Source: Tomocerus qinae
Lineage: Eukaryota; Arthropoda; Collembola; Entomobryomorpha; Tomoceridae
DNA length: 64,000 nucleotides
Direction: 5' to 3'
Assembly (NCBI GenBank): GCA_020055645.1
Contig: CM034549.1
Location: forward strand, 11,063,501-11,127,500
Part shown: one piece after another, positions 2,701 through 47,600 of the stretch
Layout of the letters: each line of letters begins with the position of its first letter
Position numbering within the stretch: position 1 is the first letter of the stretch
Made by a program: the position numbers and the translations under genes
Notes under the pieces: generated by a model
What the model was told of the DNA's origin: nothing
Database searches by the model: none
The model's input: only the letters and a program-made list of their open reading frames with translations

Positions 2701-3871
2701 TTTTATCGTGGAATCTACAAAATCGACAAGATATCACTATTTAGCTTGGTGTTAATTGACTTCTGAAGGGTGGATATTCATGACTACCAGCAGTTTGATC
2801 TGGGACAGGAATGGGATTCCGGAATGGGACTAATTCAAAAGAAAGTCCCATATAAAATTTCAAACTATTTTATAGGACTTTCTCTACAGAACCCACCTGA
2901 TACGGGCAGGGGATGGGGGGAGGAAGAGACAGGAATCTGTCTATTTGCCTTGATTCTAATGATAACTGATTGTGGCTGAATACATGTGCTACCATAAGCA
3001 AAAAGCAGATTTGAAACAAGTTATGTCGTTCCAAAATATGCGTGCATTTTATTATCGAAGGACAACCAGACCATCAGAATTTTTTTTTAAATCTCCCGCT
3101 TCGATCCTGCGTATACGCCTGTTTGCCAACAGTTTATTTGGTATTCAATAAATCTAAAAATGCAAAAATGTTGTAAAATGCTAATATTATTTTGTATACG
3201 AGTGAAAAATCAGTTTCAATTCAAACTGGAAGAAGCCAGATCAGGACAACACTGCGCACTGGAAATGAGAAGGCATTGTTAGGTGTATAATTCTAGACTT
3301 GCACAGTGCACAACACAGCAGACAGCAGTGCAGTGCCATCCTACTCTCCTATCAATGGAGTTTCATGTCCTAACTCTCCCTGATCAACGGAGCTTATCAC
3401 TTTTTGTTTTACATAAATACCAATAATTATCATAAAATCTTTTATTACTACACTACAAAGCGTTTTCCGTTTTGTATATCTCAAATCTCAGGAGTGTAAA
3501 AATAATGCACTAAAATGGTATACATGTAATACATTATATTGGTATACACGAGCTAGGAGGTAGAAATGGAGTATAATGTTAAACTCTCTGCTATTTAAGA
3601 AATAGATACCATCTCTCTACTAATATTGTACGGTATAATACTAAATAGTTAGCTTACACTATCGACATCAAATGTACGGACATCCAAGAAAATGTTGACA
3701 TATTCCAACAGTCACCAATGTCCAGGTCCCTCTACCTATATTGATTGTTCCTGTCGTCCACGATTGAAAATTGTTGAATAAAATTACGTCTCAGCGGTTC
3801 GTTGTCATTAATATACCCATTTACCCATACAGGACAACAACTTAAATGTGAAACCAGGAAAAAAATCTCAT
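2701..3871. other. Intergenic stretch, no gene recognised
   Basis: No coding exon, RNA gene or clear repeat structure was identified on either strand. Confidence 0.45.
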
Positions 3872-4308
3872 GTAAACTTGCCTTCGTAATTTGGTCTTTT
3901 GTGTAAATGGTAATGGCTTTCCCCGAACATCAGTAAATTGCTAGTATTGCTCAAATTCCAATCGACAAAGTCTTCTAAAAAGTAGTAGTTTTCCAGAAAA
4001 TGTGGTGGTCTTCCAGAAAACGAATGGAAACTAAAAAGGTAATTAGGAGAGAAACCTGAATTAGAAAAACTGGTCTTTCTGCTTTTCAAAACAGCTACGA
4101 AACTGGGCTTGTTTCTTAGCAAACTAGTCCTCCAGAAGCGTCTTCCCGAAGCAGTAAACTGGTATTACTCGACATCAGGAAAAAGCAATGGGCTTCCGGA
4201 AAAAACAAATATCTTTCCCAACAAGTAATCTTCCGTATTCTTGAAGCAGAAAACTTGTCTCACTCCCTTTCCAATAGTCTTTCCTAGAAATGAATGGTCT
4301 TTCCGAAA

Positions 4309-4845
4309 AACTAATTGTCTTCCTTAAGAACTAATTGTCTTCCCGAAGAACTAATTGTCTTCCCGAAGAACTAATTGTCTTCCCGAAGAACTAATTGTCT
4401 TCCCGAAGAACTAATTGTCTTCCCGAAGAACTAATTGTCTTCCCGAAGAACTAATTGTCTTCCCGAAGAACTAATTCTCTTCCCGAAGAACTAATTCTCT
4501 TCCCGAAGAACTAATTCTCTTCCCCAAAAACTAATTGTCTTCCCGAAAAACTAATTGTCTTCCCGAAAAACTAATTGTCTTCCCGAAGAACTAATTCTCT
4601 TCCCGAGTTCCCGAAGAACTAATTCTCTTCCCGAGTTCCCGAAGAACTAATTCTCTTCCCGAGTTCCCGAAGAACTAATTCTCTTCCCGAAGAACTAATT
4701 CTCTTCCCGAGTTCCCGAAGAACTAATTCTCTTCCCGAGTTCCCGAAGAACTAATTCTCTTCCCGAAGAACTAATTCTCTTCCCGAAGAACTAATTCTCT
4801 TCCCGAAGAACTAATTGTCTTCTTGAAAAACTATAGTCTTCCCGA
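4309..4845 (+). repeat. Minisatellite, 20-bp unit with 28-bp variants (left arm)
   Basis: Head-to-tail copies of CTAATTGTCTTCCCGAAGAA run with almost no change from about 4325. From about 4590 several units carry an 8-bp insertion (GAGTTCCC), giving 28-bp units, and a GTCT to CTCT substitution spreads through neighbouring units. This pattern suggests local unit-by-unit duplication. More degenerate copies of the same core extend outward to about 3890 and inward to about 4990. Confidence 0.95.
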
Positions 4846-5099
4846 AGTGTCTTTCCGAAAAGGTAATGGTCTTCCCTCTTCTCGAAGCAACAAACTGTAC
4901 TCTCTTTCCGAAAAGAAAAGTAAAATGGTTTTCCCGAAGCAGTAAACTGTTGGCCTTACCCTTACTGGTCTTCCCAAAAAATGAAAGAATATAAGCTTGA
5001 AGAAACTGGTCTTAACTCAAATAATGAGCCGAAATAAACGGAGGAAAATCCTCATTATTTGAATTAAGTGGGCTAACAAAAAATTTCTTTCTGGGTAGA

Positions 5100-7560
5100 C
5101 CAGTTTACTTTTTTCGGAAGACCAATTCCCTTATGCCGAAAACCACTTTACTTTTTTCGGAAGACCAATTCCCTTATGCCGAAAACCACTTTGCTTTTTT
5201 CGGAAGACCAATTCCCTTATGCCGAAAATCACTTTACTTTTTTCGGAAGACCAATTCCCTTATGCCGAAAACCACTTTACTTTTTTCGGAAGACCAATTC
5301 CCTAATGCCGAAAACCACTTTGCTTTTTTCGGAAGACCAATTCCCTAATGCCGAAAACCACTTTGCTTTTTTCGGAAGACCAATTCCCTTATGCCGAAAA
5401 CCACTTTGCTTTTTTCGGAAGACCAATTCCCTTATGCCGAAAACCACTTTACTTTTTTCGGAAGACCAATTCCCTTATGCCGAAAACCACTTTGCTTTTT
5501 TCGGAAGACCAATTCCCTTATGCCGAAAACCACTTTACTTTTTTCGGAAGACCAATTCCCTTATGCCGAAAACCACTTTACTTTTTTCGGAAGACCAATT
5601 CCCTTATGCCGAAAACCACTTTGCTTTTTTCGGAAGACCAATTCCCTTATGCCGAAAACCACTTTACTTTTTTCGGAAGACCAATTCCCTTATGCCGAAT
5701 ACCACTTTACTTTTTTCGGAAGACCAATTCCCTTATGCCGAAAACCACTTTACTTTTTTCGGAAGACCAATTCCCTTATGCCGAAAACCACTTTGCTTTT
5801 TTCGGAAGACCAATTCCCTTATGCCGAAAACCACTTTACTTTTTTCGGAAGACCAATTCCCTTATGCCGAAAACCACTTTGCTTTTTTCGGAAGACCAAT
5901 TCCCTTATGCCGAAAACCACTTTGCTTTTTTCGGAAGACCAATTCCCTTATGCCGAAAACCACTTTGCTTTTTTCGGAAGACCAATTCCCTTATGCCGAA
6001 AACCACTTTGCTTTTTTCGGAAGACCAATTCCCTTATGCCGAAAACCACTTTGCATTTTTCGGAAGACCAATTCCCTTATGCCGAAAACCACTTTGCTTT
6101 TTTCGGAAGACCAATTCCCTTATGCCGAAAACCACTTTACTTTTTTCGGAAGACCAATTCCCTTATGCCGAAAACCACTTTGCTTTTTTCGGAAGACCAA
6201 TTCCCTTATGCCGAAAACCACTTTACTTTTTTCGGAAGACCAATTCCCTTATGCCGAATACCTCTTTGCTTTTTTCGGAAGACCAATTCCCTTATGCCGA
6301 AAACCACTTTGCTTTTTTCGGAAGACCAATTCCCTTATGTCGAAAACCACTTTACTTTTTTCGGAAGACCAATTCCCTTATGCCAAAAACCACTTTACTT
6401 TTTTCGGAAGACCAATTCCCTTATGCCGAAAACCACTTTGCTTTTTTCGGAAGACCAATTCCCTTATGCCGAATACCTCTTTGCTTTTTTCGGAAGACCA
6501 ATTCCCTTATGCCGAATACCTCTTTGCTTTTTTCGGAAGACCAATTCCCTTATGCCGAATACCTCTTTGCTTTTTTCGGAAGACCAATTCCCTTATGCCG
6601 AAAACCACTTTGCTTTTTTCGGAAGACCAATTCCCTTATGCCGAAAACCACTTTACTTTTTTCGGAAGACCAATTTCCTTATGCCGAAAACCACTTTACT
6701 TTTTTCGGAAGACCTATTCCCTTATGCCGAATACCTCTTTGCTTTTTTCGGAAGACCAATTCCCTTATGCCGAAAACCACTTTATTTTTTTCGGAAGACC
6801 AATTCCCTTATGCCGAATACCTCTTTGCTTTTTTCGGAAGACCAATTCCCTTATGCCGAAAACCACTTTGCTTTTTTCGGAAGACCAATTCCCTTATGCC
6901 GAAAACCACTTTGCTTTTTTCGGAAGACCAATTCCCTTATGCCGAAAACCACTTTACTTTTTTCGGAAGACCAATTCCCTTATGCCGAAAACCACTTTAC
7001 TTTTTTCGGAAGACCAATTCCCTTATGCCGAAAACCACTTTACTTTTTTCGGAAGACCAATTCCCTTATGCCGAAAACCACTTTGGTTTTTTCGGAAGAC
7101 CAATTCCCTTATGCCGAAAACCACTTTACTTTTTTCGGAAGACCAATTCCCTTATGCCGAAAACCACTTTGCTTTTTTCGGAAGACCAATTCCCTTATGC
7201 CGAATACCACTTTACTTTTTTCGGAAGACCAATTCCCTTATGCCGAAAACCACTTTACTTTTTTCGGAAGACCAATTCCCTTATGCCGAAAACCACTTTG
7301 CTTTTTTCGGAAGACCAATTCCCTTATGCCGAAAACCACTTTACTTTTTTCGGAAGACCAATTCCCTTATGCCGAATACCTCTTTGCTTTTTTCGGAAGA
7401 CCAATTCCCTTATGCCGAAAACCACTTTGCTTTTTTCGGAAGACCAATTCCCTTATGCCGAAAACCACTTTACTTTTTTCGGAAGACCAATTCCCTTATG
7501 CCGAAAACCACTTTATTTTTTTCGGAAGACCAATTCCCTTATGCCGAAAACCAGTTTACT
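5100..7560 (+). repeat. Minisatellite, about 57 copies of a 43-bp unit (right arm)
   Basis: The unit contains TTCGGAAGACCAATTCCCTT followed by ATGCCGAAAACCACTTT and an RCTTTT junction. The period is exactly 43 bp and the copies are nearly identical. Recurring variants are ACTTT/GCTTT, AAAACCAC/AATACCTC and CCCTT/CCCTA. Because 43 is one more than a multiple of three and the unit has no stop on the plus strand, all three plus-strand frames are open for over 2.2 kb. I treat this as a by-product of the repeat, not a gene. The array begins and ends with a variant CCAGTTTACT junction. Confidence 0.97.
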
Positions 7561-7596
7561 GTTTACCAAAACACCAAATTACTAAGACTAATTTAC

Positions 7597-8460
7597 GTTG
7601 AATCCCACTGAAGCTGATGCTCCACTGTCGATACCGATTTAGAATTCCAGAGAAGTTAAGCCAGTACATACTAGTTTGAATATTGAATAATTATAACTGG
7701 TGGTGAATACTACCAATACCATTTATTACGTTTGGCTAATATTATATAAACTCATGAGACTGCGATATCAACTCATCGGGGATAGTTATTGTAAACACGT
7801 GCTTAGTAACATAAAGTAACATTGACAGTCTTATTCAGTAGTTCTCTGACTCTGGCCAGTTAACTATAATATCTACGGGATTTCAGTAATGACTAAAGCC
7901 AAGATAATATCCTAAATGCAATTTCTATTTTAAGATTCAGAAGGAAGTATCGATTACAACTACAGGATGGGCATAATTGAATTAGATCAATCAGAATCAA
8001 TGACCAGAGTTTTCATGCATAATGCCAATAACCGTTTGTTAATCCTCATTTATCTTGGATTCACTAACCCCTTTATTAGGTATATGCTTTTATGGAGAGT
8101 AGATGAATAGCTTACATCTTTGTCTTGCATACCAATTATTTCCTTTGATATAAAAGGTTCTACTGAAGTATCCACAAATGACTTTATGTTATGGCTCACT
8201 CCAAGAAAATTACTATGCTTGTCGATTTCTCTTGGCCAGTGCCATAAAAATGAAGATCTTATTCCAGTTATCAATAAAAAGGTTAACCCACATGAGTATT
8301 TAATGTAGTTGTGTCCCGGTTTCGTGAGGAGAATGTTGATTTTGCATTTAGGTAGGACACAGAAGAGATTCGTGAGCTAGGTATTGTTTATGTAGTCTTT
8401 TCTTAACCCAGAAAACCTTCTTACTGTTTTTCTACACATAAAAAATAGAAGATCGAAAAT
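7597..8460. other. Upstream region of the guanylate cyclase gene
   Basis: No coding exon was recognised. An in-frame TAG lies 12 bp before the cyclase ATG, so the coding region does not extend further upstream in this exon. The 5' UTR and promoter presumably lie here, but no core element can be named with confidence. Confidence 0.4.
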
Positions 8461-20742: not shown

Positions 20743-21116
20743 CTATTACACCGTTATTTTGCACTTTGCGTTTTGCACTATGCAAAATTTTTAACTGGGC
20801 CCAATGGGATAAATTCTGGAAGCGCAACTGGCCACGAAAATTCATTTTGAATACTAATTTGCACTTTGCATCGGTTTGCAAAGCCTCAAGAGGTTTTGCG
20901 TTATAGAAATTGCAAAGTGCGTAAAAAGTGGGGCCTATTACACCGTCGCTTGACAATTTGCATACGCACTTTACAAAATTTCTATAAATCAAAACTGCAA
21001 AACCTCTTGAATTTTCATGCCCAGTTGCGCTTCCAGAATTTATCCCATGGGGCCCAGTTCCTGGACAAAACTTTTGCATTGTGCAAAACGCAAATTGCAA
21101 AATAACGGTGTAATAG
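20743..21116. mobile_element. Foldback MITE-like element, 374 bp
   Basis: The ends are inverted copies, CTATTACACCGTTATTTTGC (20743) against the minus-strand reading from 21116. Pairing continues inward through GGGCCCA, GGATAAATTCTGGAAGCGC and CAACTGG, and through a second inner pair around CAAGAGGTTTTGCGTTATAG. Most of the element can fold into one hairpin. A further copy of the end motif GGGCCTATTACACCG lies near its middle (20931), suggesting a composite or nested origin. No target duplication was recognised. Confidence 0.7.
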
Positions 21117-21213: not shown

Positions 21214-21397
21214 GTCTATAGGCTACTACTAGCTTCTACTAGCCTTGGGACCCCAGGTCCCATAAAAATCGGACTGATCCTCTGGGAGAAATTGAAGCCG
21301 ATGTAAAATATTTTTTAACATGCGTTTACATAGTCCTTTCCTTTGTGGTTGCTATGAGGCTGTGCAGGCGCTTTCACATGGGCCAAATTGCACTTAT

Positions 21398-21532
21398 TAG
21401 ACTACGTTAGTCTAAATTGCGCTAAATTAGATCTAAATTGCACTAAATTAGACTACGTTAGTCTAAATTGCACTAAATTAGGCTACGTTAGTCTAAATTG
21501 CACTAAATTAGACTACGTTAGTCTAAATTGGA
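21398..21532 (+). repeat. 30-bp tandem array
   Basis: About four and a half copies of a 30-bp unit starting TAGACTACGTTAGTCTAAAT with TGCACTAAAT. One copy lacks 9 bp. The sequence decays into related ACTAAATTGG-like repeats to about 21580. Confidence 0.9.
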
Positions 21533-23119
21533 CTAAATTGGACAACTTGAACCAAATTGAACAAAGTTGGACTAAATTGGGCAAGATGCTAGTTGAACTG
21601 AGTTTATATATATTATATAGTAGTCCATATTAATAAATTATAAATTTCTATTCATTTCGATAATCAATAATGAAATGATCTGTATTGAATTTTCGCTCGT
21701 TTTGATTGTCAATATTGTCAATACTTGGAATTAATATTCATTTTGGTAATAAATTTTTACGTTTTTCTACTCTTGTTGAGATAGAAAATGCCGCCCCTAT
21801 TCGGCCGAAAATAAAATTCAACAATTTAATTTCTGAATAACATTTGTGGTAAGTATACAAAACTGGAAAATTTTTTCCATTTTTTAACGAAAGTGAGTAA
21901 AAAAATTGCCTAAAAATGGCAAAAAATCGTGAAATTGTTTGCTATTTTGAGAAAAAATTCCCTTCTTTGGATTTCAGGTGGGGGGGGCGCTTCAGTCCGT
22001 AAAGCCCATCCCTCTATACGTCCTTGGTGGTAGTAATATACAGGGTGGCCAAAGATGAATGACATACATTTTGACCCTAAATAACTTTTAAACAGTATGA
22101 CTTAATAATTCAGACGAGATAGATACCGATAAAAAGACCAAGTGATATTCGCGCGTAGGGGGAAAAATGGAATTCTTATGGCACACACAGGAATTTTGTG
22201 TGGCAAGATATCTTAGTACACAGTCGTGATTTGTATGGTGTTGGTGTGTTATAAAAAATCACGTGAATTTATCTGGAAGTTAAGGGAAAAATCTATGGTA
22301 AAAATAAGAGTACCAATAGTAAGTAAAGAGGGTAACTAAAGGGTTAAACAATGTACTGGGGTATTCGGAAGGTATGCAGTTTTGCATCTTATATTATTAA
22401 CTGTTTTGAAGTGTAAAACAAAAAACGATGAAAATCCATGAAAAAAGAAAAAAATCTATGAAAATCGATGAAAATCTATACACATCGATGAAAATCTATG
22501 AAAATCTATGAAAATCGATGAATTCGCAAAATTTAAATTCATATAGATTAGTCTATAAATTTGCTATTTGCGCCTATGGCTATGGCCATCAATCCTCAAC
22601 CAATTTTGGCTTTCTGTGAATAACAAATACACAAGCAAAAATTTCCATTTTTAGCTATAATCTTCCTTTAATTGCTATTCATTATATTCTATTGCTATCC
22701 AATATTTCTACCTTCTAAATTCCGATAAAGTGCCAAATTATATAGTGCACACTGGAAATTTTACCGCCCTCTAAAATTTTCCGCCCAGTGCCGGTGCACG
22801 GCCCTCGGGACGGGCCTTTGTTCTATCAAAAATATCAAATGCGGTTCCCGTAACTTCGGTTAGCATTTGGTAAGTATGAATGATGCCTTTTGCGTTCGGT
22901 TAGATACTTGCAATACGATTAATATAGGTGATTTGTATGAATTATGAATATGTAGCATGGATTTTATTACCCCCAGTTGTCAAACCCAAGGACTCACACG
23001 TTTTGCGTCTAATTAAAAGCAGAAAAAATAGATGTATGTATATATGGTAGACATTTTTATTATCAGATCAACATTTTCTTCTGTTGTGTTTCTTTGTATT
23101 CTCTGAAGTCATCACCAGA

Positions 23120-29010: not shown

Positions 29011-31071
29011 TAACTGAATCAGTAATATATTTAGTAGATGTACACAATTAATAGATGAAGATTAAATACCAAATTGCCCACAGCAATTGAAAAGGATTCT
29101 CCTGCCACTTACATGCAAATGTCTTTGTAGCTTAATGTCCTTGTCTTTATCATGAGAAGTTCATCATATTCATCAAAGTTCTAAGTGTAGATAAAAGGTA
29201 AATGTTATCTCAAAGATATGTTGGTACCTATGTCGTATACTATCTATGTTCTATGCATATGCTAAGATCAGTGTACAAAATATACCACTTTTTAGGCTTT
29301 TTTACCATCACAGTGGTAAAAATGCACTTAATGGTAAAAATGCACTTAATGGTAAAAATGCATTTAATGGTAAAAATGGTAAATTTTGGCGATTTATTAG
29401 ACAGATTAGTATTAGATACACAAAATCTACTAAAATATAGGTTTGACTTATTTTCAATGAAATATTTCCAATTAGCCCTTTAGTTAATCAAAGTATTAAT
29501 CCTATTCATTTGGTTGTTCCCCGAAGGTTATAAAAAATGTTACTAAAATCAAGATTGCATTTGGTATCGCCATGCAATTTAAAATTGATATGAATGCGCC
29601 AATTTAATTGCAATTACTCTCTCAATCGGCAAATAAGGGCGATTAGTGTCCCCATCGGTTGAATCTAACTCTGATTGAATGGACACTTATCAATTTGTAA
29701 CAACCATTATCAGCTGCTAAGCTATTTCATACTTTGACAGCCAATTATATTCAAAATTTAAACACGAAATTTAAATGAAACTATTTTTTACCATTTTTAC
29801 CAATTTATACCACTTACCACTAGTTTTAAGCAGGTGGTATTTAACGTTAAATACCATTTAAAACCACTTACCACTGGTAATTGATAAATGGTATTTTGTA
29901 CACTGGCTAAGATTAAGCCTGAAACTGCCTTTTTCAGCTATGAATCTTTAGTCTGAGTGTTCCATACAATGAATGCTTTTTACTGCAATACACAAGTTGA
30001 ACCGAATTGGACTGAATCAAACTGAATTGAACTGAATTGGTCCAAATTGGAGCGAATTGAACCAAACTATCCGAATTTGGCTAAATTTAGTTTAAAAAGT
30101 CAGCAGAAATTTTAATTTACCCCGGGTACTCGTAAAACGGCTCCCTCTTAATAAAACTACTACAAACAAACGAGAAATTAACATTGTATTGCATGACTGA
30201 GTATGATTTTCAATTTTCAATTATATTCAATTATATTCAATCAATTATATATTTGATTGTTGCCAAAAAGAAGTTGACAAAAAATTTTCAGCCTCAGGAT
30301 ATTATATACCAAAAATGATAAAACGTTTGAGGAGTTACTCGCAGCTTTACACTTCATTATTATTGGCTATTTACCCTTTTCTGCTTTTCTTTTCTGTACA
30401 GAAAGTTTTGGTCGGTGTTTCCACAACTAGTTACTCAGGGACAAGCAGTCGTTCCATAGGTCTCCTTACTGACTGCTGATCGTATCAGATTCTTGGATCT
30501 TAGTACTCCTTGTGAATGTTAAGTGGCTTAATTACTAACATACGATAAAATATGGCAAGGTCAGTACTTTTATCGGTAGGTACCTAATAAATGGTGACTC
30601 GTGACAGGTTGGTTTTAGAAAAAAATCAATTAATGCATCATGCAAAAACTATCATCCCTGTAACAATGCATGAGTATTAGTGGTTTCATCAACTATAGAT
30701 AAATTAAGAACCATGCCAAAATAGACATGCTTTAGACATGACATGAAATACACCCGTCGTTTGTGCCAATTAATATGCACAGGATATTTTATTTTATTCA
30801 ACCCTTCATGTAATGTCAGTTGCATTTGAAAATGTTTAAATGCACTGTTGGTATACATTCTATTGTGATGGCTATGCAACGATTTAATTTTAATTGAAAC
30901 AAGAGCCTATACAGAGGACTTTTAATATGGTCATTGTGTTATTATCCTTGGTTTTTATGATTAACTTTAGTCTTTGTACGTGCAGCTGATAGATTTTAAT
31001 TAATAGTGAACATAACACAGAATGTGGTATAATATGGTTATAATAATATCTACACGTTTTTCAGAAAAGAA
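29004..31071. other. Intergenic region between genes E and F with a hAT MITE
   Basis: No coding exon was recognised. It contains the 637-bp hAT-type element, a degenerate GAATTGAACTGAATTGG-like repeat at about 29995-30070, and otherwise unremarkable AT-rich sequence. Confidence 0.5.
29269..29905. mobile_element. Non-autonomous hAT-type element (MITE), 637 bp
   Basis: Left end CAGTGTACAAAATA (29269) and right end TATTTTGTACACTG type (to 29905) are inverted copies with CAGTG/CACTG tips, typical of hAT. The element is flanked on both sides by a perfect 8-bp direct repeat GCTAAGAT (29261-29268 and 29906-29913), the target-duplication length of hAT. It has no transposase frame. Subterminal repeats are visible: four copies of an 18-bp unit around GGTAAAAATGCACTTAAT at about 29317-29375, and several ACCACTTACCAC blocks near 29810-29880, possible transposase-binding sites. 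Confidence 0.92.
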
Positions 31072-41624: not shown

Positions 41625-44600
41625 TTACAAAGAAGTGACATGTACACCATTTTTCTGAACGAAAGTATCTGTCGAGTTGACGATTTCAGGAAGAAGTGGA
41701 GGAGGTTCATTAATAAGGACCTGTGGAATTATAATATTTGTATTAGAGCCGAAGGGATTGGAGTGTCCTGTCGGGGTGGGGAACTTGTTGGAGTATTGTA
41801 CATAGTTCCCATTACTGCTTCCACAAGCACTTAAACTGTTACAATTGCTTAAAAGAATTGACGTCATTTCAACATCCGAATCCCCAATTAAATCATCAAC
41901 ATCTGGCTGAGTATTTCTTCGACTTTGATTGACATGCGAGAGAGTGGTACTGGAGGAAGTGGACATGTGCGGCATTAGAGGAGACAAATGATTTCCAGAT
42001 GGTCCGGCCACGGCCACTTGTCCAGCGTTCTTTCCATTGCCATTTCCTCCTATCGAGGTAGTGTTCGTCTCAATCCCAGTGGTGGTTCCTGCGTAAGTTG
42101 CCGAAGTGATTGGTGCACTTGGTTTTCTTTGCCTTCTTGAGTGTTTCTTGCCTCGAGGGAATACAGAGTTCTCCATGTGTAAGCCTGAATTCGCATCCTT
42201 CAAAAAACAAAACAAAAACTTTAGACACATTTAATGTAAATGCGTACATAGACTAAACTATAAGTTAAAGAGCTTTCAATTTTGCTTTTCTATAGCTCTA
42301 TACTGTTTGCATGCAATTTTTTCACTTGCATGCAAGTTGAGAGTGTTTACAGTCTAAGTCTGACATTTAGCCTCAAGTCCCTAAATAATACTGTCTAAAT
42401 TAACCATAAGTAATTGCATATATAACTATTAAGTTTTAAGGAGGAATTATCAGGAAAATCCATCACTAGCACAGCATTAGCATTAATACGTCAAAAGACA
42501 TACTACATTATGGATGCATTTCATCAAGAGCTATACCCTGTAAGTATATTCTTGTTCAAACTATCCATCATAATTAGAAATCGATGAATTTGCACCTCTT
42601 CTCTCTCTAAGTAGCACAATTCCAAACTTTAATTTAGTGGGATGAAGAGCAAACTCAAAAGTCGCTTCTCTCTGATCTCAACTCGTTGGAAGAAACTTAA
42701 CTTCGAGTTTACCAACAATAAACAAGGTTAGTTTAGCGCCCAAAGACTAACTGTAGTTTCAGACTAACTAAAGAATGAGTTCATATCTATTTGGAGTAGT
42801 ATCCATTAAGAACTACTCTAGAGTCATCGATGGTACTTTTTGTGACGAAATAATAAGTATACGTTACGTAGTACGATGATAAACAAACTTCTACGTTGCT
42901 TCATCCTTACTTTTTCAAGTAATATCTATAGATAGAACTTCTTTCTATGACTTTCTTCGTTTTCCTACATAGTTTAACAGCCAGAGGCATAAATAATTAA
43001 CGAAATTTCCTAACTTCATACCATAGTTAATAGAAGCTGACAGCAAAAAGTATTTGCATTCCCAGTTTTTAACTTTATCACACGTTTGAGAACAAATAGC
43101 TCAACTCAATTACTCATACAAATGAGAATTAGTCCCTCTCCGCCCGTCTGGAGAACAAGAAAAGCCAAGGGGGTTGAAAAGACCGGCGGAGAGGACCTCT
43201 CCCCTTAAATTTCGGATGAAGTGGAGTGCTATTCTTTGTATGTAATACATCTTCATCCAACATATGTCTAAAAAAGTAGCACTCAAGGACATAACTTTGC
43301 CCTATTTTTAACGAAATGGTTCATCATAACGAGTTAAAATGAAATATCCTTGGCTATTGTGCAGGGAAATAAGTTCACACCTGTATTAAATGTAAATACT
43401 CTAGCATGTCATCTGGGATACATTTGAGCATCTGCACCTGCTCAAATGTATCCGGCTACCTTTGAGCACTTGCAGAGCACCCAGAGCAGCTGCTCAAATG
43501 TAGCTGGATACCTTTGAGCAACCCAGGAGCAGCTGCTCAAATGTGTCCAGATACCTTTGAGCACTTCTAGTGCACTCAGAGCATCTGACATGCAGTCATC
43601 CGACAATGATAATGAATAATAGTAAATGAACACAAATAGTGAACCAAAATCCTTAAGAGCCCAGTGCCTTTAAATTTGGAAATCTCTGGTGACTATCAAA
43701 ATACATGTAAAAATTGCTTTAAAACTCTTGGAATTCTGTCTAAAGTTCTTACCCGATTTTATGGTGTGGCACATTTTTGGAATCCTGAATATATTGTCGA
43801 CCACCCCATTGTACAAAATATACGATATTTAAATTTTCTAGCAGATTTTGTCGTTAACAAAATTATAATCGCAATAAGATATATTAATGAGTAAACATAT
43901 CGTATATTTTGTACAATGAGGGGGTCTACAATATATCCTTGATTCCAAAAATGCGCCATACAAGAAAATCGGGTAAGAACTTTAGACAGAATTCCAAGAG
44001 TAGTAAAGCAATTTTTACATGTATTTTGATAGTCATCAGAGATTTCCAAATTTAAAGGAACCGGGCTCTTAAAGTCAGTAAAATAAATAAAAAATCCCCA
44101 AAATAAATTAAAATTACAAAAATCCGCATTACCAAATTTAATTCCAAATTTAATTCGAAATTACCAAATTAATTCCAGAATTACCAATTTAATTCAAAAT
44201 TACCAAATTTAATTAAAAATTACTAATGAACAAAAAGTCCAAATCTATTGATATTGATTGTCAAAGTAAATACAAAGTCAATATATTAATATTGATTATC
44301 AAGATCAATACAAAATCAAATTAGATTAATGTAGATTTTGAATTAAATGTGGTAATTTTGAATTAAATTTGGCAATTTTGAATTAAATTTGGCAATTTGG
44401 AATTAAATTTGGCAATTTTGAATTTTATTTGGCAATTTTGAATTTAATTTGGCAATTTGGAATTTAATTTGGCAATTTTGAATTTAATTTGGCAATTTGG
44501 AATTTATTTTGGTAAATTTTTACTTCTTTTTGTAATTTTAATTTATTTTTGTGATTTTTTATTTATTTTGCTGATTTTAAGGATTGCTATTTGTGTTCAT

Positions 44601-47600
44601 TTACTATTATTCATTATCATTGTCGGACGACTGCATGTCAGATGCTCTGAGTGCACTAGAAGTGCTCAAAGGTATCTGGACACATTTGAGCAGCTGCTCC
44701 CGGGTTGCTCAAAGGTATCCGGCTACATTTGAGCAGCTGCTCTGGGTGCTCTGCAAGTGCTCAAAGGTAGCCGGATACATTTGAGCAGGTGCAGATGCTC
44801 AAATGTATCCCAGATTAGCATGTCACAGCTAGTTAATTATTTAGGACAAATATTCAGGTTCACTCGTTTTTTAGACTAATACGAATATACGATTCAATTT
44901 ATTCTCGACCAATGTCCACAACAATATTTTGGTTTATATCAAACTAAGCGCAAAAGACATTACAAGACTTACTTAATAAGTCCAATATAATCTCTGTATC
45001 TTCTGAGAGAATTCATTTCTATTCTATTAAGACTCACTGTCAAGTGCAATTAATAATTAATAATCTCCCTGCTAGTCTATATCGTCTTTTTCTTTACACA
45101 CTACATTGTAAGTTAGATTAGCCAATAATTCACTGTGCAATTCTATCTATTAGACCATGAACATGTCATGTTTCAGACTTGTCATTCTAGAGAAAATGTT
45201 ATGAAGAGGAGTAAGTGGATGCGGGTGAATAAGTGTTAAAATACATTGGAGCTGTTTCTTTTAATCCGAGTCTGTCCCAAAAAACCTTATTAGTGTGAGA
45301 AAGAAAGTTAATCCAATATCCAAGATGTATAAATGTATATAGATAGCAAAAGACACTTGGTTGTAATGGACAAATTGAAATGTCAGATAGATTTTGGACA
45401 ATAAGCTTTTGGCAATAGGAATTACTTTATGATTTACTTTGTCAGTTCTTGTACAAATCCTACAGTGAAGATCTGGGTGTATACAGCACTAAAAAGTACG
45501 ATTAATAAACAGGAACGGACATTAGATCGATTCATGGAAAGAAAAACAACGAAATAAGGTGCATAACACTAAGTCCACTACCCACCCAAACTTAAATGGA
45601 ATTATGTGATCACTGCTAATGAACATCACAACAAAGTTCCATTCTATTTAATTGTGTTTCTATTCCTAGAAAATCTATCTGTATTTGTGTACTTGCATGC
45701 GGACAAATATAATTGAAATTAATGAATGATGAAATACAGAAAGGCACCTACACAACTACCCACGTAAGTAAATACTCTCAATCACTACCACTACATACAT
45801 AAAACCCATCTGTTTCAACAGAGATCATTAGTTATGTGATGAATAGTAATAATACCTTTGCAGTAGCACAAGTACAAGCCTTGAGGAAACTCTTTTTAAA
45901 GTTATCCGATAGAAAAGCGTAGAGAATCGGATTCCTACAAAGTACAAAAAAAGTCATCTCATCATTGGTACTTAATTGGTACATCATTATTTTCATGGTG
46001 AAATTCTCAATATCACTAATTCGTATTTTTTTCTACTTTTATCTACAACAAAAGAGTAGAGTTACATACATCGCTGAGTTTGAATAGCTGAGGCATCCAC
46101 ACAGAAGATAAATGGTCAAAACAGCTTCAGAATGATTTGAGTCTGGAGGCATGTAAATTAGAGCCATCTGCATAAAAATAGAATCTCATTAGTTCCTTTC
46201 AAACATTGAAAGCTATCTTATAATTAAAACTACTGCAATGATATTTACTTATTAAATGATTATTCTTCCTCTGCACATTTCTCTTGAAAATGGTAAAGAA
46301 ATCAAAGTAAACTAATGAGCACTAGTTTTAATCTACCTACTAACTTTACAGTTTTCATTAATTAAGCATCTTAATGAATCCTTTGTTCTTGGGTTGAGTA
46401 GGATCATAATATTATTACTGAGGAAAGTATTTTTAGCCCGTATGTACACTAGCCTATAGTCTACAAAAATAAGGCTAATTAAACTACGCTGCAATGCAGG
46501 CAGTACAAATCATGGAAAAGTGCCACAAAAATAATATTAGTAAGTACATTGTATTACAATACATTCTCTCATGAACAAATACACAAAGAAAAGTCGAAAT
46601 TGGTAGTACTATTTACCATTATGAGTTAGAAACAATAAATAGAGATGGCCATACAATTTTCTTTTGGAAAAGTCATGTAAGTATTTTAAAAAGTTGACTA
46701 TAGCATCATACTACTATGACCTCGTTATAATTTATATTCTCAGATGCATTAATAACCCTCACGGCAGAATACCATTGTTTTACTTTCATTTACCTGTCAT
46801 TTGTCTGAAAAAAACTCATGAAATATTTTTGATAAAAACTTTATACGTCAGAACCTTTTGTTCGAATATTAATTAGCAATTACTGCGTACTATTGGGTAC
46901 TATATTATATTACACTGACTGCGACTATTCCGCAATGTTTTGGCTTCACAAGTTAATCAAAAAAGCATAAAATATCATCAAAGTGAAATCCTACAGATAC
47001 AGGCACAAAAATGCATTTCAATACTTTAGCTACAGTGATGGGAATTAGGTTCTGATTAATTAATGACTATTGTGAATGGTAATGGGGCATATTAATATTG
47101 AGTAGTACGGTGAATAAGAACGGTTATGTCATTAGTTTGTCATTAGACTATAAACAGTAGACATAGGACAGAGAACATGATAAGTACTAATGTGTAGAAT
47201 AATTAGAGCAATTAAAATCTTGTAAATTTATAATTAATCCAATTAAATATATTTTGCACATATGTCCGTGTAATTTGGGAGTAATAGGAACAAACCTGAG
47301 TAACCCAGTAGGGAGCCCAGCACAAGAAATAGACAGTAATGACCGTTAGCACCAGCTTGGTAACTTTCTTATGAGACTTTTTCCTCTCTTTTGCCCTGTT
47401 ATTTTGTTGCTGCAACTGCTGTTGGTCTTTAGCACTGGAGCCAGCTACTACCGGTCGCCTTTTTGGTCCAACTGTCCGTAATCGACGAATTACAAGCACG
47501 TAGAAGATAAAGATCAGTGCTAATGGTGTCGAAAATGCAGTGAAGAAAGTGTAGTAAATGAATATTCTTTCTCCGCTCATGGAACTTGATTCTGGCCAGA

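Follow-up and report, generated by a model that had tools for sequence, protein, structure and literature searches.

A foldback element of Tomocerus qinae with different repeat units in its two arms, probably a decayed copy of a Mutator-type foldback family

The window, i.e., the whole stretch of 64,000 nt analysed here, was taken from the Tomocerus qinae assembly GCA_020055645.1 (contig CM034549.1:11,063,501-11,127,500, forward strand). Its gene content is of animal type and includes a guanylate cyclase, a GT92 gene and a rhodopsin-type receptor; a search for solved relatives of one of its frames found none. The window also contains a foldback element composed of two arms and a hairpin, in which no coding interior or remnant has been recognised between 3864 and 7606. 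An earlier note had drawn the limits of this element at 3872 and 7596. Alignment to relatives sets them outward, to about 3864 and 7606, the left position being an extrapolation by 5 bases past an alignment which begins at 3869. The element is organised as follows:

3864..7606, no strand: entire foldback element (two arms plus hairpin), with ends placed by alignment to relatives to within a few bases
3864..3921, + strand: left outer TIR end, matching the right end; score 54 against the 5' end of a relative, L035 (shuffle maximum 36, n=500)
3922..4292, + strand: degenerate ~22-bp repeats of the left arm, for example 4138-4160, GCGTCTTCCCGAAGCAGTAAACT
4293..4847, + strand: left array of a 20-bp unit (nearest the family 21-bp unit) with 28-bp variants
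4848..5010, + strand: inner degenerate repeats of the left arm, for example 4927-4948, GGTTTTCCCGAAGCAGTAAACT
5011..5068, no strand: central hairpin with stems 5011-5028 and 5051-5068
5099..7564, - strand: right array of a 43-bp dimer unit, made of a GCATAAG-type half and a 22-type half
7546..7606, - strand: right outer TIR end; together with the first unit, score 91 against the 5' end of L035 (shuffle maximum 42, n=500)

The structural hallmark of foldbacks, long inverted repeats built from short tandem units, is thus present, and the outer inverted match, the central hairpin and the oppositely oriented arrays reported by the earlier note have all been confirmed. Careful alignment of 3872-3921 with the reverse complement of 7596-7546 gave 79% identity over 52 alignment columns. 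The corresponding score of 46 was reached by none of 1000 dinucleotide shuffles (mean 16.9, sd 2.4, maximum 31) and by none of 987 pairs of random real stretches of the window (maximum 32), 13 of the 1000 drawn pairs having been discarded as too close together. After removal of the part internal to the array, the score was 42, again reached by 0 of 1000. A chance likeness of the outer ends is ruled out by the shuffles at score 46, and the ends are indeed inverted repeats. At the centre, 17 of the 18 stem positions are paired, a number obtained neither in 100 Markov-resampled sequences (maximum 14) nor in 150 real stretches taken from the window away from its other repeat-rich parts (maximum 15). 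The central 211 bases, array ends included, also fold better as single-stranded DNA than shuffled sequences do (z -3.29). The polarity of the arms is strict: the 22-bp core motif (score >=16) occurs 35 times on the + strand and never on the - strand in the left half, and 59 times on the - strand and never on the + strand in the right half, against a background of 15 matches on both strands of the remaining 60.1 kb of the window. In the left arm, the motif extends beyond the array, with matches at 4007, 4138, 4190, 4210 and 4234 inside the outer degenerate repeats, one more (3915-3939) spanning their start, and matches at 4847, 4875, 4901, 4927 and 4967 in the inner degenerate repeats. The two arms therefore carry a related core in opposite orientation, as had been claimed.

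The two arrays are built from units of different length. The 28-bp variant of the left array is the 20-bp unit extended by an 8-bp piece, TTCCCGAG, and the right array holds 57.3 copies of the 43-bp unit. This unit is in turn dimeric (~21 + ~22 bp): it matches itself at 25 of 43 positions at offset 21/22, which is a single comparison on the circular unit, while the other offsets from 15 to 28 give 8-16. The earlier note thus had the sizes right (20/28 versus 43 bp), but the contrast that it drew was overstated, because the right unit is made of two pieces of ~21 and ~22 bp. Both arrays are T-type (GGTCTTC). The 56 full units of the right array share a mean pairwise identity of 96.8%, with 11 of the 43 positions variable between units. 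Neighbouring units are no likelier to be alike than in shuffled order (the observed value was reached by 526 of 2000 shuffles), and therefore no local blocks or gradient are seen. This order fits thorough mixing through exchange, which it does not prove. In a genome search allowing up to 3 mismatches, the right unit gave 57 matches in the window array and two elsewhere, both with 3 mismatches; no array of it was found outside this site, and it was therefore most likely amplified in place. Identity among the right units (96.8%) far exceeds that between the two ends of the element (79%), which fits an old copy holding a recent or continually refreshed right array.

Related copies are present elsewhere in the genome (334 Mb in 115 contigs). 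A search with 3860-5140 as query returned at least 152 matches, which were grouped into the window and 26 other loci, in agreement with the 27 first-look candidates, all of which were scored. Related arrays are thus found at no fewer than 26 loci besides the window, of which 19 were retrieved for inspection. Both ends were recognised in 17 of these 19 copies (L015 and L021 having no recognised 3' end). The 17 span 767-1195 bp, and most of them begin with GGTGTCACGTAAACTGG at one end and finish with CCAATTTACATACGACC at the other, the outermost bases differing between the two ends. Target site duplications (TSDs), which the earlier note had proposed to look for, are perfect in 15 of the 17 two-ended copies: 14 are of 9 bp and one, in L009, is of 10 bp. 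They are imperfect in L010 (7/9) and L017 (4/9). The family thus has TSDs within the 8-11 bp expected of Mutator (MULE) elements, and L035 and L081, described below, add two cases to these fifteen. L017 and L018, located ~22 kb apart, are equal in length and have the same unit counts; the 9-bp TSD is perfect in L018 (GGCCTTATC) and absent from L017, which suggests a rearrangement or a secondary duplication.

The window copy is evidently related to this family, as judged from its sequence. No 9-bp duplication was found at its aligned ends, and its sole 9-bp TSD candidate (<=2 mismatches) puts the left end at 3873, within the aligned terminus. Its assignment to Mutator (MULE) elements rests on family kinship because its own TSD is absent, an absence which might be a sign of age.

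Coding remains in the relatives point to the transposase. A genome search for the MULE domain (PF10551) gave 59 hits, of which 30 were retrieved with ~1.5 kb on each side, a span which misses arms located farther away. Among these 30 loci, L035 is enclosed by arms of the kind found in the window family. It is flanked by a 9-bp TSD, AATACGAGT, and carries between its arms an uninterrupted 168-codon MULE fragment (E 6.6e-14). With this fragment as query, a protein search in which 150 of 271 candidates were scored listed 150 matches, and among the 20 retrieved, L065, L071 and L081 bear family-type arms, besides L035's own place. L081 has MULE remains between its arms and a 9-bp TSD, AGTTGGAAA; a TSD was sought at L065 and L071 and none was found. 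L017 and L018 likewise enclose a MULE piece (71% identity). Within family-type terminal repeats, the MULE domain is thus present in L035, L018 and L081, as fragments only. The FLYWCH domain (PF04500) is found whole in the interior of L003, with 44.9 bits against a cut-off of 23.6 and no MULE hit. L016 scores slightly under this cut-off (22.5). Of the 124 residues of the FLYWCH-bearing frame, in which the domain occupies 45-104, residues 1-60 are matched by L018 and residues 21-58 by L065. Hence, FLYWCH and MULE both occur between family arms, each as separate pieces; no complete transposase frame was found within family arms among the loci examined. Away from the loci with family arms, L039 encodes FLYWCH and MULE in one intact 489-codon frame. 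From the MULE and FLYWCH pieces between the arms, and from the FLYWCH/MULE elements elsewhere in the genome, the family appears best placed among Phantom-type FLYWCH/MULE foldbacks, with FLYWCH and MULE in separate fragments.

Three further MULE elements, L038, L040 and L043, have FLYWCH-like stretches and, in both arms, 22-bp tandem repeats of other sequence. In L038 and L043, the MULE domain is accompanied by a FLYWCH-like stretch with 48% identity to the L003 frame, and the 22-bp repeats number 5.7-6.0 copies in each arm. A period of 22 bp may thus characterise a broader lineage.

Comparison with the family indicates how the two arms of the window copy may have come to differ. Family arms run from the end motifs to a subterminal GCATTAG/GCATAAG unit and then to alternating 22- and 21-bp units. 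When the window pieces were scored against 11 family reference units, typed from sequences, half A of the right unit agreed best with three subterminal GCATAAG-type units (21, 18 and 18; next 14), half B with the 22-bp unit (28, equalled by one L035 unit), and the left 20-bp unit with the 21-bp unit (24; next 20 and 19). Each of these best scores was reached by 0 of 2000 shuffled queries, the margin by which the left unit is assigned to the 21-type over the 22-type being modest. The left end of the window copy resembles the 5' end of L035 moderately (54, shuffle maximum 36), and its right end with the first unit scores 91 against the L035 5' arm (shuffle maximum 42). Direct comparison of the 21-, 22- and 20-bp window pieces with one another is suggestive, 9, 12 and 1 of 300 shuffles, respectively, reaching the score, and comparison with the family units gives the clearer signal. 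As the right unit combines a GCATAAG-type and a 22-type piece and the left unit is nearest the 21-type, these comparisons support an origin of the two arrays from different pieces of a common kind of arm, one amplified on each side, most firmly for the right unit. This was the first of two alternatives offered by the earlier note, and the pieces concerned can now be named. The second, independent evolution of the arms after insertion, is compatible with the first, the right array having most likely expanded in place.

Arms with differing units are found in relatives as well. In the parallel case of L065, a 22-bp unit is repeated 6.6 times in one arm and another 22-bp unit 23.5 times in the other, with a MULE remnant in between; the second unit is present once in L035. 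In L081, the units are of 43 bp in either arm (4.5 and 8.4 copies) and, read side by side, differ over one ~10-base stretch.

In the 17 two-ended copies, the arms are also distinguished by a nearly fixed base. Among the counted units, i.e., those with GGTC[C/T]TC[C/A] and leaving out L015 and L021, GGTCTTC is found in 128 of 130 left-arm units and GGTCCTC in 101 of 102 right-arm units. The rule is broken by the left subterminal unit GGTCCTCG of L017 and L018, which lies outside the counted motif. In 13 of the 17 copies (those other than L010, L018, L019 and L020), the identity between left and right within one copy is 0.818, versus 0.856 for left-left and 0.892 for right-right identity between copies. 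Once the T/C base is masked, these values become 0.862, 0.858 and 0.893, and arm specificity therefore rests mainly on one base, masking having evened left-right with left-left identity. An additional ACCAA/ACAAA difference between the arms was read off the list of the commonest 21-bp units and was left uncounted. The T/C pattern does not represent 17 independent events, because it is inherited among related copies. It suggests that homogenisation does not extend from one inverted arm to the other, though each is internally regular. One could imagine that the arms are functionally distinct ends, the transposase needing a T-type (GGTCTTC) and a C-type (GGTCCTC) array, with selection keeping each array homogeneous and different from the other and the T/T state of the window copy going with immobility; we regard this as rather unlikely.

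Collectively, these data are very probably explained if 3864..7606 belongs to a Mutator-type foldback family, as a decayed and non-autonomous copy consisting of arms only, and if these arms have expanded different pieces; mobile members of the family would depend in trans on a FLYWCH + MULE transposase. Our confidence is tempered by the modest margin for the left unit and by the scattering of the FLYWCH and MULE evidence over separate fragments.

Three other explanations have been weighed. The element might be a composite of two foldback copies joined by ectopic recombination, the arms of which never belonged to one element. The right end of the window copy is indeed nearest the L035 5' end and its left unit nearest the family 21-bp unit, chimeric copies have been described for Galileo (PMC3573991), and L017 resembles L018 yet has no TSD, as expected of a recombinant. 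However, the outer ends of the window copy resemble each other over 52 columns, subterminal and internal kinds of units share one arm in family copies, and no second array of the right unit (<=3 mismatches) was found; we consider this origin distinctly unlikely. That two independent minisatellites came to lie head to head, with outer ends alike by chance, is very improbable. The right unit was found arrayed at the window site only and the copy has no TSD, as this would predict, but the ends and the units on both sides all match a single transposon family, the outer-end score was not reached in 1000 shuffles, a hairpin is present at the centre, and all 35 left matches of the core motif are on the + strand and all 59 right matches on the - strand. 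Finally, three stop-to-stop frames cross the right array (844, 759 and 750 codons), and its reading as a selected coding repeat (frames up to 844 codons) is rejected with near certainty, as the three overlapping frames are open because the 43-bp unit is stop-free, 11 of 43 positions vary and nothing else supports it.

MULE transposases act on the terminal repeats of their elements and produce duplications of 8-10 bp, and defective MULE copies can be mobilised in trans. In the interpretation that we favour, that of a decayed Mutator-type copy, a FLYWCH + MULE transposase would act in trans on the mobile members of the family, and the ~22-bp arm repeats, which correspond to about two turns of DNA, would be putative binding sites of this transposase, perhaps for its FLYWCH finger. 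Such tandem sites would grow and shrink through slippage or unequal exchange. After or around insertion, the left arm would have expanded the 21-type unit (20/28 bp), and the unit expanded in the right arm would combine the subterminal GCATAAG unit and the 22-type unit (43 bp, 57 copies). The window copy would have lost its coding interior, a recognisable TSD and presumably its mobility, and its arrays may now be evolving as local minisatellites. Additional transposase-binding sites in TIR repeats have been discussed for Galileo (PMC3573991) and Tetris (PMC4079207).

Among known systems, the closest in design is Tm1, a Mutator/Foldback family of 'Phantom' type from root-knot nematodes, in which 45 of 53 complete elements have TSDs of 8-10 bp, mostly 9 bp (PMC3169594). 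According to the published description, Tm1 shares with the window family FB-like composite TIRs consisting of short repeats in tandem, TSDs that are mostly of 9 bp, repeat numbers which are unequal between the TIRs of one element, short outer motifs which are unlike at the two ends, and many non-autonomous copies; its transposase combines MULE and FLYWCH, both of which the window family shows as pieces (PMC3169594). In contrast, the Tm1 unit is ~14 bp long, versus ~22 bp here (21/22 dimers of 43), and, unlike Tm1 as described, the present family has a nearly fixed left/right base and the window arms amplified different pieces (PMC3169594). The MULEs of Aedes aegypti, including Muta1, which its authors class as a type-2 Foldback, are similar in their TSDs of 8-9 bp, in the short subterminal tandem repeats of variable number in their TIRs and in their many non-autonomous derivatives (PMC5225508). 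However, their repeats are of 12 bp with 3-4 bp spacers, and an intact active element is known, whereas none was seen in the examined loci of the window family (PMC5225508).

Galileo, a P-superfamily foldback of Drosophila, resembles the window family by its internally repetitive TIRs, the unequal repeat number in each copy and its 'independent TIR dynamism', but it differs by a P-superfamily transposase, TSDs of 7-8 bp and internal repeats of ~140-210 bp (PMC3573991; PMC4168063). Membership of the P superfamily was rejected here: the perfect TSDs are of 9 bp in 14 of 15 copies and of 10 bp in one, rather than 7-8 bp, and the coding remains between the arms are of MULE and FLYWCH type, not those of a P-type transposase. 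In Tetris, a non-autonomous foldback of Drosophila virilis, the TIR repeats, for which an origin from part of the terminal domain has been proposed, also expand and seed satellite arrays, but the unit is of ~220 bp and the transposase has not been identified (PMC4079207). The earlier note knew of no described element arranged in this way, and a limited literature search, not aimed exactly at this point, found no published element with different repeat units in its two arms. The claim is nevertheless weakened by the unequal TIR repeat numbers described for Tm1 (PMC3169594) and Galileo (PMC3573991), and by L065 in the same genome, the arms of which have clearly different units. The window copy is therefore best filed as a candidate new member of the FLYWCH/MULE ('Phantom'-like) foldbacks, Tm1-like in design by published description.

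One type of arm, made of ~22-bp repeats, can thus yield two arms with different units. L035, which has expanded little, L065, with its parallel expansion, and the window copy all lie in a single genome, so that one can trace how foldback arms grow and how transposon ends give rise to satellite-like arrays.

Other repeats are present in the window. A second foldback (43402-44825) has arms of 229 nt, 43411-43639 and 44587-44815, which are 99% complementary, internal repeats with a period of 43-52, and a flanking 10-bp direct repeat, TAGCATGTCA, at 43402-43411 and 44816-44825; it is possibly another MULE-type foldback. Nested in it, 44068-44581 is an inverted repeat with opposed 20-bp arrays of 4.3 and 8.9 copies, at which no exact flanking duplication of 7-12 bp was found, and 43653-44072 is an additional inverted repeat (91%). 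A 94% inverted repeat and three arrays with periods of 10, 20 and 30 bp, one of them partly palindromic, occupy 20743-21116, 21396-21580, 22421-22522 and 29997-30066. Finally, a 274-bp tandem duplication (1840-2381, 93%) lies between the inverted arms 1421-1503 and 2953-3035 (86%).
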